The notes below the pieces were generated by a model. It made no database searches. It saw only the letters and a list, made by a program, of their open reading frames with translations, and was not told the origin of the DNA. 64,000 nt of DNA from a virus, in the IMG/VR virus record IMGVR_UViG_3300042868_008532, positions 1 to 64,000 of that record. One strand, written 5' to 3'. Position numbers and translations under genes: made by a program. Positions 48,811-59,306 of the stretch are shown piece after piece; position 1 is the first letter of the stretch, and each line of letters opens with the position of its first letter.

Positions 48811-50859
48811 ATGACAGAACCTATGGATGGTGGAAGTAACGGTGGAAATAATAAATCAGTTAAGACTGATTCATCAACACCTGTATTAGACAATTTTAGT
48901 AGAGACCTTATTAAATTAGCCGAACAAGGAAAACTTGACCCGGTAATTGGTAGAGAAAGGGAAATCACTAGAATTGCTCAGATTCTTTCACGTAGAAAGA
49001 AAAATAACCCAATCATTATTGGTGAACCTGGTTGTGGTAAAACAGCAATCGTTGAAGGTCTTGCCATTATGATTTATAATGGGGAATGTCCAAGAAACTT
49101 AATGGACAAACGTATCGTATCATTAGATATGACATCAATTGTTGCCGGAACCAAATATCGTGGACAATTTGAGGAAAGAATGAAAGTTATCATTGAAGAA
49201 CTTCAAAACGAACCTAACATTATCGTATTCATTGACGAAATCCACACAATAGTTGGTGCAGGAAATTCATCAGGTTCAATGGATGCGTCTAACATCTTTA
49301 AACCAGCACTTGCTCGTGGTGAGATTCAATGTGTTGGAGCAACAACCTTAGACGAATATCGAAAAAACTTTGAGAAAGACGGAGCGTTAGAAAGACGTTT
49401 TCAAAAAGTTGTTGTGGATTCAGCAACCAAAGAAGAAACTTTGGAAATCCTTAAAAACGTAAAAGACAAATACGAGAACTTCCATAAGGTAACTTATACG
49501 GATGAAGTATTGTCTGTATGTGTTGATTTGGCTGACCGTTATATCACTGACAGAGAATTCCCGGATAAAGGTTTTGATATCATTGATGAAGTGGGAGCAA
49601 GAAGTCAAGTTGATATTAAGATGCCGGATTCAATTGAGAAATTGAAACAACAAGCGTCTGATATCAAACAAGAAAAGATTGATGTTGTAAAACAACAACG
49701 ATATGAAGAAGCTGCGAACTTACGTGATAAAGAAAAACGTATCTTAACCAAACTTGAGACTGAAAAGAAAAAGTTTGAAGAAGAACTTCTTACTCACAAA
49801 AAAGAAATCACATTAGATTTAGTTTATGAGGTTGTGTCTAACATGACCAAAATTCCGGTAACCAAATTAAATGCTGATGAGACCAAACTATTATCTGAGA
49901 TGGAGGCAAACCTATCTGATAAAGTTATTGGACAATCTGAAGCCGTTTCAAAGATTGCTAAGTCAATCCGTAGAAACAGAATTGGTATTAAGGACCCGAA
50001 CAAACCAATCGGTTCATTTATCTTCTTAGGTTCAACAGGTGTTGGTAAAACATACTTGGCGAAACAACTAGCAAAACAAATGTTTGGTAGTGAAGATAAT
50101 ATGATTCGTGTGGATATGTCTGAATACCAAGAAAAACACACCATCTCAAGATTAATTGGAGCACCTCCGGGATACGTTGGATACGATGAAGGGGGACAAT
50201 TAACCGAACAAGTGAAAAACAAACCTTATTCTGTAATTCTATTTGATGAGATTGAGAAAGCTAACAAAGATATCTTCTCAACACTTCTTCAAGTATTAGA
50301 CGACGGTCACCTTACCGATGGTATGGGGAGAAAGATTAACTTCAAAAATTGTGTCATCATTATGACCTCTAATGTTGGAGCTAAAAAATTACAAGATTTT
50401 GGTTCAGGAGTTGGTTTTAAAACCGGAACAAGCACTTATGCTGATGAAGAATACAAACGTGATGTTCTTAAAAAAGAACTTAAGAAATTCTTCACACCGG
50501 AATTCTTAAACAGAATTGATGAGGTTGTTATCTTTAACACCCTAATTAAAGATGATGTTAAGAAAATTGTGAAATTGGAATTAGACAAACTATCTAAAAG
50601 ATTAGTTGGTTTGAAATACGATATTACATTTGATGATACCATTTTAGACCTAATCTCTGAAGTTGGATTTGATGAGACCTACGGGGCTAGACCAATCAAA
50701 AGAGCAATCCAAGATAAAATTGAGGATTTTGTGTCCGAAGAAATTATCAAAGGAAATATGGTGGAGGGTGTTCCATACACCCTTATATCCGTAGAGAAAG
50801 AAGTGGTAGTTAAACCGGAAGTTGTTAAAAAGACAAGAAAGAAAAAAGAGGACATATAG
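48811..50859 (+). CDS. ClpC/ClpA-type AAA+ unfoldase without N-domain
   Basis: 682 residues with two AAA+ modules: GEPGCGKT (71-78) with VFIDEIH, and GSTGVGKT (about 407-414) with ILFDEIEKA, plus sensor and arginine-finger-like motifs. A UVR-like coiled segment ([14 protein letters not shown]) lies between, as in ClpC. GVGFKTG near residue 534 resembles the VGF/LGF loop that docks on ClpP. The usual double Clp N-domain is missing; the first 25 residues are low complexity. It would unfold tagged proteins for host ClpP, and it lies about 2.3 kb from the tmRNA gene. Its codons look more GC-rich and host-like than the neighbouring genes. Confidence 0.8.
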
Positions 50860-53179: not shown

Positions 53180-53573
53180 GGGAGTGACACGGAATTGACT
53201 ATTCGTAATAGTTATTCGGGGCACGTAGTGAGATGTTCTCTATCACTTAAATCTATGGGTACAACAATTTAGACGGAAACGTTTTAAACAAAATGGCTCT
53301 AGTAGGTCTTGTACGTCAAGATGAGCTTGTGAACGTAGCGTAAGCAAACACACATTGGGGTCGGTGGACATATAACCCAGCAACAGGAGTCCTTAAAAAG
53401 GTGTGGTACCTATCCGAAAAGGTACAAGTGGAGGATTAGTTCTCAGTAAACCGAACCACTCTAAAAATAAGGGAATTGTGAAATTTTGGATTGTTAGCTT
53501 AAACAATATCCTAAACGTGTAGTCCTTAATAGGTAATACAAGTAACACCGGAGTTCGAGTCTCCGCACTTCCA
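53180..53573 (+). ncRNA. ssrA: Transfer-messenger RNA (tmRNA)
   Basis: GGGAGUG (53180-53186) pairs with CACUUCC (53566-53572) as a 7-bp acceptor stem; A73 follows and CCA is not encoded. The T-arm CGGAG-UUCGAGU-CUCCG (53549-53565) is canonical, and GGAAUUGAC near the 5' end is a tmRNA D-loop-type segment. Several compact stems between about 53390 and 53520 (for example GUACCU/AGGUAC at 53406-53425) fit pseudoknot domains. A resume region UUUAGAC then GGA (53275) resembles Bacteroidota tmRNA; the frame runs 22 codons to UAA at 53341-53343. The SmpB gene lies 0.9 kb away. Confidence 0.85.
53275..53343 (+). other. tmRNA tag reading frame
   Basis: From resume codon GGA the frame gives Gly followed by 21 residues ending QDELVNVA and UAA. 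Typical tags in this phylum start with Gly and end in ALAA. The resume point is inferred from the UAGAC-GGA context, so the exact N-terminus is less certain than the end. Confidence 0.6.
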
Positions 53574-53582
53574 CAAAAAGAA

Positions 53583-54032: not shown

Positions 54033-54413
54033 TTATTGTTTAACTCCTCCCCACAAATAACCATCACCATATGAAGTACATATTTCTTCACCGGGTTGGA
54101 TTGTTTGTAAAGAGTAAAATTGAAATGCTCGTTTAGTTGGGTGATTTCTCCACATTGCGTTATTAGTATCTGAATGATTATATATACATCCATACCCTAA
54201 TGGTATCACATATTCAGTCCAATTTGGTCCTTGAGGATAACAAAATCTATAATCATCAAGTAATCTTGATTGTTCCCATTTTTTTGTTGGTAAAGTCACT
54301 AAATGACATTCTTCAATCAACTCATCTTTTTCAATGACATCAATTGCAAATACCCCCATTCCTTTTCCTGGAGAGGGTTTAATCTCTATTTTGGTCGGTA
54401 TTAATAAATTCAT
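54033..54413 (-). CDS. SET-domain protein (putative lysine methyltransferase)
   Basis: 126 residues. GKGMGVFAIDVIEKDELIEE, then YNHSDTNNA and IQPGEEICTSYGDGY follow the SET fold: the N-terminal strand with GxG, the NHxxxxN cofactor/substrate region and the E-x8-Y end motif. It is short but complete for a minimal SET domain. Such enzymes methylate Lys on histones, ribosomal proteins or translation factors. It lies next to smpB, about 25 nt apart, so a translation-related target is plausible but not shown. Confidence 0.7.
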   Translation of the reverse strand: MNLLIPTKIEIKPSPGKGMGVFAIDVIEKDELIEECHLVTLPTKKWEQSRLLDDYRFCYPQGPNWTEYVIPLGYGCIYNHSDTNNAMWRNHPTKRAFQFYSLQTIQPGEEICTSYGDGYLWGGVKQ

Positions 54414-54428
54414 AAGTAAATTATAATA

Positions 54429-54460
54429 AAAAAAGAGACTATTTCAAGTCTCTTTTCATA
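54429..54460. terminator. Terminator at the smpB 3' end
   Basis: AAAAGAGACT / AGTCTCTTTT stem that overlaps the last codons of smpB. Confidence 0.65.
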
Positions 54461-54876
54461 TCTCTTTCAATGTCCCGAGATTTAATACTGTCTCGTTTAT
54501 CGTATGTCTTCTTTCCTTTGGCAAGAGCAATCTCCATCTTAACTAACCCGGTATCATTTATGAATACACGATAAGGAACGATGGTGGTTCCGTTGATTAG
54601 TTCGTTCTCCAATTTATTAAGTTCTTTTCGTTTAAGTAATAGTTTTCTATCCTTTACGGTCTCGTGAAAGGACCCGAACCCATAATCAGAGATATTCATT
54701 CCCTTTATAAACAACTCACCATTGTTGAAGTAACAAAACCCCTCAGATATGGAGACCTTTCCCTGACGGATGGACTTTACCTCTGAACCAACTAGTTTGA
54801 TTCCCACGATTAGTGTCTGTAGGAATGAATACTCAAACTTGGCTTTCTTATTGACTATGTTAATTGATTTTTTCAT
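54439..54876 (-). CDS. smpB: SmpB, tmRNA-binding protein
   Basis: 145 residues covering the whole family length. KKAKFEYSFLQT, GSEVKSIRQGK, the KDRKLLLKRKEL strand, the late VKMEIALAKGKKTYDKRDSI and a basic C-terminal tail (SRDIERDMKRD) match SmpB. It carries tmRNA to stalled ribosomes and mimics an anticodon in the decoding centre with that tail. A TATCTTTG box starts 4 nt before the ATG. It pairs with the tmRNA gene at 53180-53573. Confidence 0.9.
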   Translation of the reverse strand: MKKSINIVNKKAKFEYSFLQTLIVGIKLVGSEVKSIRQGKVSISEGFCYFNNGELFIKGMNISDYGFGSFHETVKDRKLLLKRKELNKLENELINGTTIVPYRVFINDTGLVKMEIALAKGKKTYDKRDSIKSRDIERDMKRDLK

Positions 54877-54953: not shown

Positions 54954-55106
54954 ATGAACCCAAGAAAAAAAGAAGAAGATAAAAAAGTAAAATTTGGAAT
55001 CTGTGTTGACCCGGTAATATACCAAAAAATGGAAGATGAGATGATTAACAAATCTCGCCTGATTGAAACACTATTGAAAGAACATTATGGAAAAAAAAGT
55101 TTGTAG
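54954..55106 (+). CDS. Small ribbon-helix-helix-like protein
   Basis: 50 residues. VKFGICVDPVIYQKMEDEM then KSRLIETLLKEHYG is a one-strand, two-helix pattern of MetJ/Arc-type ribbon-helix-helix proteins. It ends inside the HNH gene, overlapping by 20 nt in the +1 frame, so both are co-translated. A near copy in layout occurs at 58544-58696. It could repress the endonuclease. Confidence 0.6.
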   Translation: MNPRKKEEDKKVKFGICVDPVIYQKMEDEMINKSRLIETLLKEHYGKKSL

Positions 55107-55707
55107 TAAGTGTAAAGAAGAAAAAGAGGTTTGCGAGTTTGGGAAACGAAAAGATTCCAAAGATGGTCTGCGAAGTGAATGTAAAAGTTGTGCTAAAGAA
55201 TGGAGATTAAAGAATCGAGAACATTTATTAAAATATAATAAAAATTGGAAAAATTCTAATTCAGAACACGTTTATCATTATCATAAAAAATATAAAGAAG
55301 AAAATGATGAAGAATTAAAGAAATATCAAAAAGAATGGTATCTACAAAATAAAAATATTCTTAATGAAAAAATAAAACTAAAAAAATTAACAAACCCAAT
55401 ATTTTTAGTTTCGTGTTCAGTTAGAAAAAGAATGTCCGAGTATATTAAAAAAAATAATATATTGAAAAAAAATAAAACTTTTAAAGTTGTTGGATTGAAC
55501 CCTATTGAATTATCTCATTACTTGGAAACTCAATTTACAGAAGGAATGTCTTGGAATAACTATGGAAAGTATGGGTGGCATATTGACCATATAATTCCGT
55601 TATCTTCAGCAAAAAATGAAAATGAACTTTATAAGTTATGTCATTATACTAATCTCCAACCACTATGGGCAGAAGACAATCTAAAAAAATCAAATAAACT
55701 ATTATAA
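55087..55707 (+). CDS. HNH homing endonuclease
   Basis: 206 residues. The N-terminus has a CxxC...CxxC zinc region (CSKCKEEK ... CKSCAKEW); the C-terminus has WHIDHIIPLSSAKNENEL and NLQPLWAEDNLKKSNK, the HNH signature. It belongs to a cassette with an RHH-like protein and flanks the RNA locus on its left side. Confidence 0.8.
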   Translation: MEKKVCSKCKEEKEVCEFGKRKDSKDGLRSECKSCAKEWRLKNREHLLKYNKNWKNSNSEHVYHYHKKYKEENDEELKKYQKEWYLQNKNILNEKIKLKKLTNPIFLVSCSVRKRMSEYIKKNNILKKNKTFKVVGLNPIELSHYLETQFTEGMSWNNYGKYGWHIDHIIPLSSAKNENELYKLCHYTNLQPLWAEDNLKKSNKLL

Positions 55708-55712
55708 ACAAA

Positions 55713-55745
55713 AAAAGGTGTCACAAATTAATGTAACACCTTTTT
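55713..55745. terminator. Bidirectional terminator between HNH gene and the large ncRNA
   Basis: AAAAAGGTGTCACA / TGTAACACCTTTTT stem with one mismatch and A/T runs on both sides. It would stop the HNH transcript and the minus-strand RNA. Confidence 0.75.
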
Positions 55746-56628
55746 GGCTTAATACGATGAGAATACTCGTCTTATTGAGAATCTTCGGAAGGATTATTGT
55801 TTCCCTTCTTTTCCACCATCTTTTGAATGGTAATCCTCATTGCCGATTGGTTAGACCAATCACTCCTTAAGATATCATTTACTCTCTCATTATTCAACTC
55901 TCTTTAACCTTGCGAGCTAACTCCGGATTCGACTCCGTAGAGGTTTTTGGCGAGAATACATTCAGACTTGCGGTCATCCTGTGCAACGAACAGCTCGTTA
56001 CTATGTAGGCAACTTGTCAATGATACCTGACAGACACTTTTGCTTTTTTCTGTTTAGTTTTTCACCATATTGAAAATAGTTATTGTGTTGTGGATGTGTC
56101 CAAGTAGAGGTCTGTCTTAGGCTTCATCATCTTTTGGACGAAGAAATACCAACCTACTCGGTAGAGCGTCCCCACTCTCATATTTTAAGAATTCTTCGAA
56201 TCAAAATCTTGGTAGATGTTTGATAAGGATAATGACAGCACCACCTGTTACTTATCTTGTCTTTCGACTTTAAGATTTCTCTCATATTGGAACCCGTAAT
56301 AATTAAGTTGGATAACCTAACTTCTTACTTGATTCCTATCACTTATTCCTATTGGAGTTCCCCCCTCAACCGAAAGACCCACATCTCCCGGTCACCTAAC
56401 CACTTTCTCTAAAGCGTTGCCCTCAATACTGAAGGTCAGATGGTATGTGACTTGTATACTCGAGTCCCATTTCTGAGACCGCAAACCTGTTAACACAACA
56501 GATTCACTTTAGCCCGGTTTCCCGGTTTATTTAAGGATGATATACCACCCATTATCGTTTTTTACTCCACCGAAGTGGGTAAAGGATAATCTAAAATTTC
56601 TAAGAACGTCTTGAGGTTTCCCTCATTT
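55714..56628 (-). ncRNA. Large structured non-coding RNA (about 0.9 kb)
   Basis: No plausible ORF in either strand over about 0.9 kb. On the minus strand it follows a TTG-N19-TACCTTTG promoter and ends in a terminator. Folding marks favour this strand: a CCAC-UUCG-GUGG hairpin (56567-56578) and a CCGG-GAAA-CCGG hairpin (56514-56525). Other stems include a 14-bp hairpin with one mismatch at 55748-55779, GATTGGT/ACCAATC at 55845-55861 and an 11-bp bulged stem at 56222-56255. A T-arm-like then D-arm-like stretch occurs near 55910-55945. Its size, phage setting and tRNA-like neighbours recall GOLLD and ROOL RNAs; identity is not established. Confidence 0.7.
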
Positions 56629-56634
56629 GTTTTA

Positions 56635-56664
56635 CAAAGGTAAGTGATTTTTTTCATTTGTCAA
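56635..56664 (-). promoter_or_regulatory. Bacteroidota-type promoter of the large ncRNA
   Basis: On the minus strand TTGAC (TTG at 56664-56662), 19-nt spacer, TACCTTTG (56642-56635). Close to consensus. Confidence 0.75.
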
Positions 56665-56698
56665 ACACTTTTGTAATTTTTTTTTATTTTTTTTTAAT

Positions 56699-57062
56699 CT
56701 GTGATAAGACCTTAAGATTTACTCATTCGTAGGTCACCCATTCTGTACTACCTAAAACTCGCCTTTAACATCCGTTCTACCCAAACCATCGTTTATTTCT
56801 TGTTAACCTCACGGTTATCTTTGAGTACCTCCTCAACTGTAATCTGATAGGGACTCCATATTGCTCGTCATTTCTGACTCCCTATGGGGTTCTGCTGTAA
56901 TAGGTCTATCTGCTATCTTATCACAGAATAAAATTTGTAAACCCTTGAGAAGGAATCTGTGGGCGTGTATAGGATTACTTGTCTACCTTCTATCCATCCG
57001 GGTCTCTCACCCGACGAAACTTTACTACAAATAAATTCGTAGTTCCATCCCCCACCAAATTA
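56699..57062 (-). ncRNA. Second structured RNA region
   Basis: No ORF. An 11-bp perfect helix CTGTGATAAGA (56699-56709) with TCTTATCACAG (56916-56926) closes a 228-nt domain. Inside are GTCA-GAAA-TGAC (56867-56878) and AACC-GTGA-GGTT (56805-56816), GNRA-type on the minus strand only. Upstream (toward 57062) a CTACGAA/TTTGTAG hairpin (57025-57042) and a CGGGT/ACCCG hairpin occur. It probably belongs to the transcript that starts near 57280 and carries two tRNA-like elements. Confidence 0.6.
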
Positions 57063-57075
57063 TGGTTTACTTTTG

Positions 57076-57165
57076 TGGTATCAGATGGGCTCGAACCACC
57101 GGCACAGAGTCTTTCGTTACTCCTGCTCTACCAAAGGAGATAAATCTCCACTGAGCTATAATACC
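57076..57165 (-). tRNA. tRNA-like element with extra D-loop hairpin
   Basis: Acceptor GGTATTA/TGATACC with A73, D-stem GCTC/GAGC and T-arm GGTGG-TTCGAGC-CCATC are canonical. The D-loop carries an inserted GGAGA-TTTA-TCTCC hairpin between AGT and TTTGGTA. The anticodon position forms GGAGT-AA-C-GAAA-G-ACTCT, a GNRA-capped stem without U33, so no anticodon can be named. CCA not encoded. Confidence 0.55.
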
Positions 57166-57175
57166 ATATATTTTA

Positions 57176-57249
57176 GTGGACGTATGCTCTACCATCTGAG
57201 CTACGGGGTTAAGACCGGAGGGATTTGAATCCTCGACACAACGTCCACC
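57176..57249 (-). other. tRNA-like element with permuted arm order
   Basis: On the minus strand the T-arm (GAGGA-TTCAAAT-CCCTC) comes first, then a CGG/CCG hairpin in the acceptor position, then the D-arm (TAGCTCAGATGGTAGAGC). The ends pair as GTGGACGT with ACGTCCAC, which corresponds to an extended anticodon stem. Spacing follows tRNA numbering (5-nt variable region, 14 nt for the two acceptor strands). The acceptor hairpin has only 3 bp, so aminoacylation as a normal tRNA is unlikely. Confidence 0.5.
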
Positions 57250-57286
57250 TATTTTTTCAATAATTTTAAGAACTTTATTTCTTCTA

Positions 57287-57317
57287 CAAAGATAATACTT
57301 TTATTTTAATATATCAA
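57287..57317 (-). promoter_or_regulatory. Bacteroidota-type promoter of the permuted tRNA-like transcript
   Basis: On the minus strand TTG (57317-57315), 20-nt spacer, TATCTTTG (57294-57287). Predicted start near 57280. Confidence 0.65.
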
Positions 57318-57318
57318 A

Positions 57319-57477
57319 TTATTTTAAAAATAATTCTAACAATTTTGTAATACCTAAACCAAAACACATTCCGGCAACAAAATAACTGAATGCGGGATTT
57401 CTACCTTTTTCTTTTTGAATTTTTGCACCGTATAGATTTATAACCGTCAATCCGAATTGTATTAATACTATTTCCAT
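57319..57477 (-). CDS. Small membrane protein
   Basis: 52 residues: MEIVLIQFGLTVINLYGAKI, a basic loop (QKEKGRN), then a second hydrophobic helix FVAGMCFGLGITKLLELFL. Two-helix membrane protein with its own host-type promoter. Its last codons overlap the -33 region of the next promoter. Confidence 0.6.
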   Translation of the reverse strand: MEIVLIQFGLTVINLYGAKIQKEKGRNPAFSYFVAGMCFGLGITKLLELFLK

Positions 57478-57503
57478 AATTTGTTTCTTTTTTAATTAGA
57501 GTA

Positions 57504-57533
57504 CAAAGATAATACTATTTTTTAATCTACCAA
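57504..57533 (-). promoter_or_regulatory. Bacteroidota-type promoter
   Basis: On the minus strand TTG (57533-57531), 19-nt spacer, TATCTTTG (57511-57504), upstream of the small membrane protein; overlaps the 3' end of the 57522-57674 gene. Confidence 0.65.
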
Positions 57534-57674
57534 ATCTTTTTTTGAATTTTCATCAATTTTTTTTAATTCACTAATAAGTTGGTTACCGTACCACTCTAAC
57601 CATTCAATATGGGTAAACTTTGAATCCGGATTATCCGACATAAAGTTTTTGTATTGTGTTTCTAATGTTGCCAT
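57522..57674 (-). CDS. Small hypothetical protein
   Basis: 50 residues: MATLETQYKNFMSDNPDSKF ... WLEWYGNQLISELKKID. Looks like a short helical phage protein. It follows the last tRNA-like element by 15 nt and probably shares its transcript. Confidence 0.55.
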   Translation of the reverse strand: MATLETQYKNFMSDNPDSKFTHIEWLEWYGNQLISELKKIDENSKKDLVD

Positions 57675-57689
57675 ATAATTTAATTTTAG

Positions 57690-57766
57690 TAGTCAGAACA
57701 GGATTCGAACCTGTGTGTCCACATAAGGGGTTTCCTTACCGTGCATCTCCAATGTGCTACCTGACT
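57690..57766 (-). tRNA. tRNA-like element
   Basis: Acceptor AGTCAGG/TCTGACT with A73, T-arm ACAGG-TTCGAAT-CCTGT, D-loop with TTGGA but a 3-bp D-stem. The anticodon position GTAAG-GAAACCC-CTTAT lacks U33, so no decoding identity is assigned. A GTGGACAC variable hairpin follows. Its 3' half is almost identical to the two tRNA-like elements upstream. Confidence 0.5.
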
Positions 57767-58008
57767 AAATTGTGAATCAAAAAATTTCAGCCTTAGCTCA
57801 AAAATATCATCACACGATAAGACTTCTTTGTATGGTTCAGGTATCTAAACAACCTAGGTCATTCTGAATCTTCATATCATTAAAGCAATACCTTTTTTAA
57901 GGTTCAAATCCGAACTGTAACTCATTTATTCCTTAACTTACCTAAATAAGTCTCTATGTTTATTCATAGCCCCTGTAGATACTACAGGTAGTTGACATCG
58001 TCGATTTG
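57767..58008 (-). ncRNA. Structured spacer between tRNA-like elements
   Basis: No ORF over 242 nt. A perfect CCTGTAG-CTACAGG hairpin (57972-57988), a CTATG/CATAG hairpin and a GTTC/GAAC hairpin are visible. Likely part of the same minus-strand precursor that starts near 58432. Confidence 0.4.
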
Positions 58009-58153
58009 TAGTCAGGACAGGATTCGAACCTGTAAGGTATAACCACTAAAATCGTGGAGATGGAGGTCAATTCCTCTTTTACAATACCAACCTGTGAGCG
58101 TCTACCATCAGGAATTAGCTTTATCAGTGCTACCCTTGTTCCGCCACCTGACT
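58009..58153 (-). tRNA. Enlarged tRNA-like element with D-loop insertion and branched variable region
   Basis: 145 nt. Acceptor AGTCAGG/CCTGACT with A73 and T-arm ACAGG-TTCGAAT-CCTGT are perfect. The D-arm is tRNA-Leu-like (TGGCGGAAC ... TGGTAGACGC) but has about 30 nt inserted, with a TAGC/GCTA hairpin. Beyond it, GGTAT/ATACC closes a three-way junction with hairpins GAGG/CCTC and CCAC/GTGG. A possible loop GTTGGTA with TGG in the anticodon position has a poor stem, so identity is uncertain. Confidence 0.5.
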
Positions 58154-58158
58154 ATTTA

Positions 58159-58321
58159 AAAACTAATGGTGTGTTGTTACACCAAGATACGAGGTTCGTT
58201 ACCACCTACGTGTGACACCCAATAACGATTTCCCTGGATGTTGACTTTTTGTCCGTACACTCCCACAAGGGGACAACTCCTTAGAAGATGGATACTATCA
58301 ATCCCACTTCCCATTAGTTTT
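58159..58321 (-). ncRNA. Structured domain closed by 11-bp helix
   Basis: AAAACTAATGG (58159-58169) pairs perfectly with CCATTAGTTTT (58311-58321), enclosing about 140 nt with a TTGTCC/GGACAA stem and a GGTGT/ACACC hairpin. It fills exactly the space between two tRNA-like elements. No ORF. Confidence 0.55.
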
Positions 58322-58322
58322 G

Positions 58323-58424
58323 TAGTCAGGACAGGATTCGAACCTGTTCCGTCTTTGCCATAAAGAGTCGGCCTTACCGTTACTCAACCTTGGGGAGGTG
58401 ATACCAACCAATGGTCTCCTAACT
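58323..58424 (-). tRNA. tRNA-like element, class II layout
   Basis: 102 nt. Acceptor AGTTAGG/CCTGACT with A73, T-arm ACAGG-TTCGAAT-CCTGT, variable arm TCTTT-ATGGC-AAAGA. The anticodon position GAGT-AA-CGG-TAAGG-CCG-ACTC has two bulged A; if the last pair opens, the loop GTAAGGC would carry U33 and AAG (Leu), but the stem is irregular. D-arm is unusual. First element after the promoter at 58439-58468. Confidence 0.5.
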
Positions 58425-58438
58425 ATTTTATTATGGTA

Positions 58439-58543: not shown

Positions 58544-58696
58544 ATGGGTAGACCTAAATTAAAAGAAGACGATAAAAAAGGTAAATTAGGTATAACAATA
58601 TCTAAAGAACTTATCAATAAAATAAACAAAATTACAAATAATAAATCATTATTTATTGAAGAATTAATTATTAAATATTTCAAGAATGGAGAATAA
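58544..58696 (+). CDS. Small ribbon-helix-helix-like protein
   Basis: 50 residues, the same length as the copy at 54954. MGRPKLKEDDKKGKLGITI then SKELINKINKI and KSLFIEELIIKYF fit a ribbon-helix-helix fold. It overlaps the HNH gene by 11 nt in the +1 frame. Confidence 0.6.
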   Translation: MGRPKLKEDDKKGKLGITISKELINKINKITNNKSLFIEELIIKYFKNGE

Positions 58697-59306
58697 AATA
58701 TGTTCTAAATGTAAAGTTGAAAAACTATTATGTGATTTTCATAATAATAAAAAAGAGAAGAGTGGTAAAAACTGTCAATGTAAAAGTTGTGTAAAACTTT
58801 GTTATAAATATATTAAAAAAATACCCATTATAAATTTAGAAGAATCTATTAAAAAAGAAAATTTAAGAAAATTAAAAAAAAGTGTGTATAATAAAAAGTA
58901 TCGTGAAGAAAATCGTGAAATATTAAAGAAGAAAAAAAATATTTATAAACAAATTAGGATAAATGAAAATCCTTTAGTTAAACTACGTTTTAGGATTTCC
59001 AATAACATAACTGTTTCGTTAAAACGAAATGGTGGTAAAAAATTAAGTAAAACTACTAATATTTTAGGGTGTTCTTTTGATGATTTTAAGAAACATATTG
59101 AATTATTATGGGAATCTTGGATGAGTTGGGAAAATTATGGTAACCCAAAAGATGGTATTTATCAACCAAATAAAACTTGGGATTTAGACCATATAACTCC
59201 ATCCTCAAAGGCAACATCTGAAGAAGAAATACTTAAATTAAATCATTATAGTAACTTTCAACCATTATGTTCTTATAATAACAGATTCATAAAAAAAGGT
59301 GACTAA
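58686..59306 (+). CDS. HNH homing endonuclease
   Basis: 206 residues, exactly the length of the protein at 55087-55707. CSKCKVEK and CKSCVKLC at the N-terminus, WDLDHITPSSKATSEEE and NFQPLCSYNNRFIKKGD at the C-terminus form zinc and HNH motifs; only moderately similar to the other copy, so the two cassettes are old paralogues or separate arrivals of one family. Flanks the RNA locus on the right. Confidence 0.8.
   Translation: MENKICSKCKVEKLLCDFHNNKKEKSGKNCQCKSCVKLCYKYIKKIPIINLEESIKKENLRKLKKSVYNKKYREENREILKKKKNIYKQIRINENPLVKLRFRISNNITVSLKRNGGKKLSKTTNILGCSFDDFKKHIELLWESWMSWENYGNPKDGIYQPNKTWDLDHITPSSKATSEEEILKLNHYSNFQPLCSYNNRFIKKGD

Follow-up and report, generated by a model that had tools for sequence, protein, structure and literature searches.

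The natural RNA cages GOLLD and ROOL exceed the ribosome in size and, to our knowledge, have no known function. ROOL is, like GOLLD, a large phage RNA encoded near tRNAs, and it forms a hollow cage of eight copies. Family criteria for GOLLD are a length of more than about 800 nt, a phage or prophage genome, proximity to tRNAs, and expression that rises during lysis. The solved GOLLD RNA, env-38, is a hollow homo-14-mer with D7 symmetry (Kretsch and others, PMC12286853), in which the caps are made of 5' domains and the rings of 3' domains, and a disordered linker extends into the interior. Two contacts described in that structure are bridge B7, an intermolecular kissing contact of L20 with J13/15 of different chains, and bridge B8, a self-pairing L21a loop that joins half-shell to half-shell and for which a GC/CG switch was reported (PMC12286853). 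The env-38 gene sits downstream of a Met-tRNA, and binding of ribosomes to GOLLD in pull-downs is reported (PMC12286853).

Identity and bounds of the RNA gene

We analyzed a stretch of 64,000 nucleotides (hereafter the window), taken from a virus record of 77,856 bases in IMG/VR. An element on its minus strand, known here from sequence alone, almost certainly encodes a GOLLD RNA at full length and has a promoter and a terminator of its own. The covariance models proposed for checking the original prediction gave a clear answer: the Rfam GOLLD model (RF02032) matched positions 56161-55754 (minus) from end to end (model positions 1-416 of 416) at 306.3 bits (E 1e-86), twice the curated gathering cut-off of 150 bits, and the ROOL model had no match in the window. 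A ROOL identity was rejected on this ground; the sequence and secondary structure of ROOL are unrelated to those of the window RNA. The element had been described as previously unannotatable, and as perhaps a member or a new class of GOLLD- or ROOL-like ornate RNA. Because the GOLLD model matches end to end, the first of these statements was wrong, and of the two options membership (in GOLLD) held and the new class did not.

The matched segment (55754-56161, minus) is the conserved 3' domain, and it contains a variable A-rich linker (56029-56100, minus, from the CM alignment) inside which no tRNA was called. RF02032 spans only the 3' half of GOLLD, leaving the 5' domain (approximately 56162-56628, minus) outside the Rfam model. 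This 5' half beyond the model, together with an identity over the whole RNA of only about 66-70% to the nearest named phage records, would suit a large structured RNA of a new class that merely resembles GOLLD. We consider such a class extremely improbable, since the match runs end to end at twice the cut-off, GOLLD-specific contacts are kept, and the relatives form a continuous series. GOLLD RNAs of four isolated phages from other hosts (Acinetobacter Herod, Mycobacterium Papyrus, Streptococcus Javan636, and DSS3_MAL1) also exceed the cut-off, with scores of 160-245 compared with 306 in the window.

The bounds of the gene, about 55712-56628 (minus), were set by the promoter and terminator at its ends, by full-length homologues, and by covariation. 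A Bacteroidota-type promoter, TTG-N19-TACCTTTG, lies at 56635-56664 (minus; TTG at 56664-56662, a 19 nt spacer, and TACCTTTG at 56642-56635). The pattern TTG-N17-21-TAnnTTTG was found upstream of GOLLD in 27 of 35 non-identical loci, with a spacing to GOLLD that is fixed in nearly all, and its chance rate in random sequences from a dinucleotide model was 0.26%. The TANNTTTG element is named in part of the literature on Bacteroidetes. An intrinsic terminator (55710-55745, minus, -15.9 kcal/mol) consists of the hairpin GGTGTTACA/TGTGACACC and, after it, a T-run (hairpin and T-run at 55740-55710), and a hairpin with a T-run occurred within 90 nt of the GOLLD 3' end in 23 of the 35 loci. From the positions of these two signals, the predicted transcript is about 915 nt long. 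No credible ORF was found on either strand of 55714-56628, the longest having 51 codons, and comparison with shuffled sequences (20 per strand) gave a folding z of -5.8 for the minus strand and -2.5 for the plus strand. A protein-coding reading was rejected, because the longest ORF is this short and because conservation falls on base pairs instead of codons. The original prediction of a strongly structured minus-strand RNA of about 0.9 kb, lacking an ORF and equipped with exactly this promoter and with a terminator, was correct.

The virus record carries T4-like capsid, portal, and terminase genes, and its capsid is nearest to those of the huge phage LR756508, Microcystis phage Mel-JY01, and Flavobacterium phage immuto. 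Judged by its genes, the carrier of this GOLLD is a large T4-like phage. The nearest GOLLD records in named phages come from two phages with genomes of 642 and 635 kb, and a near-identical GOLLD is present on a 318-kb contig (L036/G008). All five genomes larger than 634 kb in PMC7162821 were predicted to infect Bacteroidetes. Pattern scans of GTDB representative genomes for the host gave no match. The host is probably a member of the Bacteroidota, because of the promoter type, the two nearest huge phages, and the relation of the capsid to that of immuto. The phages of one very abundant group, large and for the most part uncultured, commonly carry GOLLD.

Covariation and cage contacts

Pattern scans of IMG/VR yielded 84 GOLLD loci, and nhmmer matched the 5' region of the window in 82 loci. 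With near-copies removed, we aligned 39 full-length sequences (882-951 nt), one of them from the window; the 38 other sequences were 61-90% identical to the window when aligned over both domains. Compensatory (double-sided) changes were seen at 143 of the 186 consensus pairs, and 97.2% of the cells over these pairs were paired. When the 3' letters were redealt (200 shuffles), the mean was 87 compensatory pairs and the maximum 98, and slid partners gave 42 to 58. The shuffle control leaves relatedness in, and the slid control keeps relatedness yet falls far below 143. Compensatory changes supported 80 of the 100 pairs in the 5' domain and 63 of the 82 pairs in the 3' domain, where 98.4% of the cells were paired, and the pairing of the 5' domain is as well supported as that of the 3' domain. 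The relatives thus showed base-pair covariation, and the codon-like conservation that the original prediction had named as its refuter was not borne out.

The window sequence itself forms 183 of the 186 consensus pairs. Apart from the three broken pairs, nothing positive speaks for a degenerate, non-functional copy of GOLLD. In addition to the intact pairing, the promoter and terminator are intact, the bridge contacts are retained, and near-identical GOLLD copies are present on other contigs, all of which makes a degenerate copy very unlikely.

With env-38 the window RNA shares a complete 3' domain, the layout of a 5' and a 3' domain, a variable linker, a length above 800 nt, a phage gene near tRNAs, the contact between L20 and J13/15, and a self-complementary L21a; the 5' domains of the two RNAs were compared by layout. 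The large phage, the Bacteroidota-type signals, the L21a core UCGA, and the adjoining tmRNA and SmpB genes set the window RNA apart from env-38.

We assigned L20, J13/15, and L21a to alignment columns from the text of PMC12286853 and the order of helices, and this mapping is our own reading. The two halves of bridge B7 are GC dinucleotides in J13/15 (56042-56043, minus; columns 760-761) and in L20 (55970-55971, minus). Columns 761 and 834 held C-G in 29 rows and G-C in 10, with no exception among the 39 rows, and they were mutual best partners by mutual information (0.82, the next value being 0.47). The adjacent pair, 760 with 835, was changed on both sides in the most distant row (L081). For bridge B8, the L21a loop of the window is GUCGAA (55928-55933, minus) with the self-complementary UCGA. 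Across the 39 rows the L21a loop was CGCAA in 26, UCGA in 12 (the window and 11 others), and CAUAA in one, and every one of the corresponding cores, GC, CG, and AU, is self-complementary. These covariations independently support the published inter-chain contacts of GOLLD.

Because the window GOLLD keeps the cage contacts, an assembly like that of env-38 is very likely. By this analogy we think it highly probable that the RNA forms a multimeric cage, and the joint claim, that the element is GOLLD and forms such a cage, appears equally probable. In each RNA, a flexible linker would join the cap domain on the 5' side to the ring domain on the 3' side, and RNA copies would assemble through loop-loop contacts into a hollow multimer resembling the solved 14-mer.

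We also observed that the half-shell interface loops L21a and L21b (columns 864-900; window 55910-55933) occur mainly as UCGA with CGCAA or as CGCAA with GGCA. A single row, L069, is mixed, as if the loops were swapped as modules.

Linkage of GOLLD and tmRNA genes

Beyond GOLLD, the window carries in order an HNH-type endonuclease gene downstream (55087-55707, plus; phrog_1035), the gene for the tmRNA-binding protein SmpB 878 bp downstream (54439-54876, minus; PF01668 E 3e-48, PDB SmpB chains E 2e-35), a gene for a SET-domain protein, and last a phage tmRNA gene (53180-53576, plus) that lies on the other strand, convergent with GOLLD. The tmRNA, an RNA of the type that releases stalled ribosomes, scored 65.7 bits with RF00023, for which the cut-off is 47 bits; ARAGORN missed it. 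A tRNA-like end with a G3-U70-type acceptor pair and a resume codon are present in its sequence, and the tag, GNVLNKMALVGLVRQDELVNVA (53275-53340), has 22 residues. Tags were unusually long (21-22 residues) and conserved in the 26 phage tmRNAs examined, with a GNVLNKM-like start, GL-x-R in the middle, and VA or AA at the end. By these sequence features the window tmRNA is intact. The carriage of tmRNA and SmpB by huge phages is already known (PMC7162821). The SET-domain gene, at 54033-54413 (minus; PF00856 E 6e-13), adjoins that for SmpB.

A tmRNA lay within 7 kb of GOLLD in 50 of the 52 GOLLD contigs that bear a tmRNA, in at least three gene arrangements. In the first set, a tmRNA was present in 39 of the 63 GOLLD contigs searched, in one of them with a score slightly under the cut-off; it was on the opposite strand in all 39 and 173-6690 bp downstream of GOLLD in 38. 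A second set, obtained with a broader GOLLD pattern, comprised 29 further contigs, of which 13 had a tmRNA, 12 of them within about 2.5 kb, the distance in one contig (G069) being derived from printed coordinates. The main order in this set was tmRNA followed on the same strand, at 0.3-1.2 kb, by GOLLD, with a tRNA-Met in between in seven of eight cases; env-38 likewise lies downstream of a Met-tRNA. A search of the second set for alpha-type tmRNA found none. In the isolated Ruegeria phage DSS3_MAL1, GOLLD scores 160.5 bits and precedes by 58 bp a permuted tmRNA of the alphaproteobacterial type; this phage is the only one of the four isolated phages with a tmRNA adjoining GOLLD.

To sample contigs independently of GOLLD, we picked 26 by capsid similarity. 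A tmRNA was present in all six of those with GOLLD, within 2 kb in five, compared with five of the 20 without GOLLD (one-sided hypergeometric probability about 0.002, although the contigs are fragmentary and do not count as independent).

In the main group, the tmRNA is followed by genes for a 454-aa protein, a 273-aa protein, and an ATP-dependent protease (48811-50859, plus, in the window; phrog_4871 E 6e-241, and synteny), all on the strand opposite to GOLLD. Because the tmRNA belongs to this conserved block, much of the linkage in the main group is inherited. The linked state switches at least five times on the GOLLD tree, so the linkage cannot be reduced to one event and is not obligatory. 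It is absent in several related lineages; in one contig (G010) the tmRNA is 193 kb distant and SmpB still adjoins GOLLD, and some relatives of the window phage have a tmRNA and no GOLLD on the same contig. Part of the adjacency reflects inherited gene order and the fact that both genes reside in tRNA islands. A full-text literature search, over a body of texts that did not include the 2009 discovery paper, gave no apparent description of the GOLLD-tmRNA pair, and the recurrent adjacency seems to be what is new here.

Possible function and neighbouring elements

The adjacency to tmRNA is a first concrete lead on the function of the GOLLD family, and it is as a lead, not a result, that we present a link to ribosome rescue. 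Taken alone, the convergent GOLLD-tmRNA pair would look like a strong sign of a functional link; the conserved downstream block weakens that claim, and the other arrangements and DSS3_MAL1 strengthen it slightly.

GOLLD and tmRNA might both be mere passengers of tRNA arrays that share no function, the cage serving otherwise, for example in storage, packaging, or as a decoy. This explanation is quite plausible, if just short of probable. In the main group, the median distance from GOLLD to the closest called tRNA was 148 bp, and in the window tRNA genes lie within 0.5 kb upstream of it; the second group forms a single array of tmRNA, tRNA-Met, GOLLD, and many tRNAs, and residence in such islands could explain all of the linkage there. 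The tmRNA search also gave no match in the GOLLD phages of Acinetobacter, Mycobacterium, and Streptococcus. In the main group, however, the median distance of the tmRNA was 1.05 kb from GOLLD and 2.8 kb from any called tRNA (distances that rest on ARAGORN calls, which miss odd phage tRNAs), so that islands are not the full explanation in that group. In six loci (L116, L138, L144, L153, L189, and L202), moreover, the nearest called tRNA was more than 2 kb from GOLLD and the tmRNA only 112-982 bp.

Because of the company it keeps (tRNAs, tmRNA, and SmpB) and the ribosome pull-down in PMC12286853, we tentatively suggest that the function of GOLLD may lie in translation or ribosome rescue, although we hold this to be rather unlikely on present evidence. 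GOLLD would then act on the translation side of infection, within the phage set of tRNAs, tmRNA, and SmpB, and its likeliest role would be that of a cage that binds ribosomes, parts of them, or tRNA-like RNAs, or else holds or shields them, during host shutdown, as stalled ribosomes accumulate. The narrower proposal, that in several phage lineages the cage RNA stays beside tmRNA (and, in one of them, beside SmpB) because it captures, holds, or shields stalled ribosomes or tmRNA-bound complexes in the infected cell, is more doubtful still. That GOLLD belongs to a phage kit for ribosome rescue and translation is a testable idea, and a partnership with trans-translation, if true, would assign a function to a natural RNA cage for the first time.

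Several other features of the neighbourhood were observed. Two HNH/endonuclease-VII-like genes (55087-55707 and 58686-59306, both plus) with 35% mutual identity flank the island of GOLLD and tRNA genes, which is possibly mobile. HNH genes near GOLLD have been described in mycobacteria (PMC6582537), and the annotation of Acinetobacter phage Herod likewise places an HNH gene near GOLLD. The tRNA genes at 57075-58425 (minus) have odd lengths (for example, 145 nt at 58009-58153) and poor ARAGORN and Rfam scores, and possibly contain inserts or are degenerate phage tRNAs. Between them, structured-looking stretches at 57790-58008 and 58155-58322 (minus) were found only in near-identical contigs. A second strongly structured non-coding stretch lies just upstream of GOLLD at 56690-57062 (minus; mainly 56690-56931). 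It folds at -92.9 kcal/mol for 373 nt, with a long closing stem TGTGATAAGA.../...TCTTATCACA, and had no match in Rfam. Copies of it that are 86-89% similar are present in L016/L131 and L138, and shortened copies from which the middle is absent are present in L048, L062, L004, and L042; the stretch may be a further structured RNA or a miniature mobile element.
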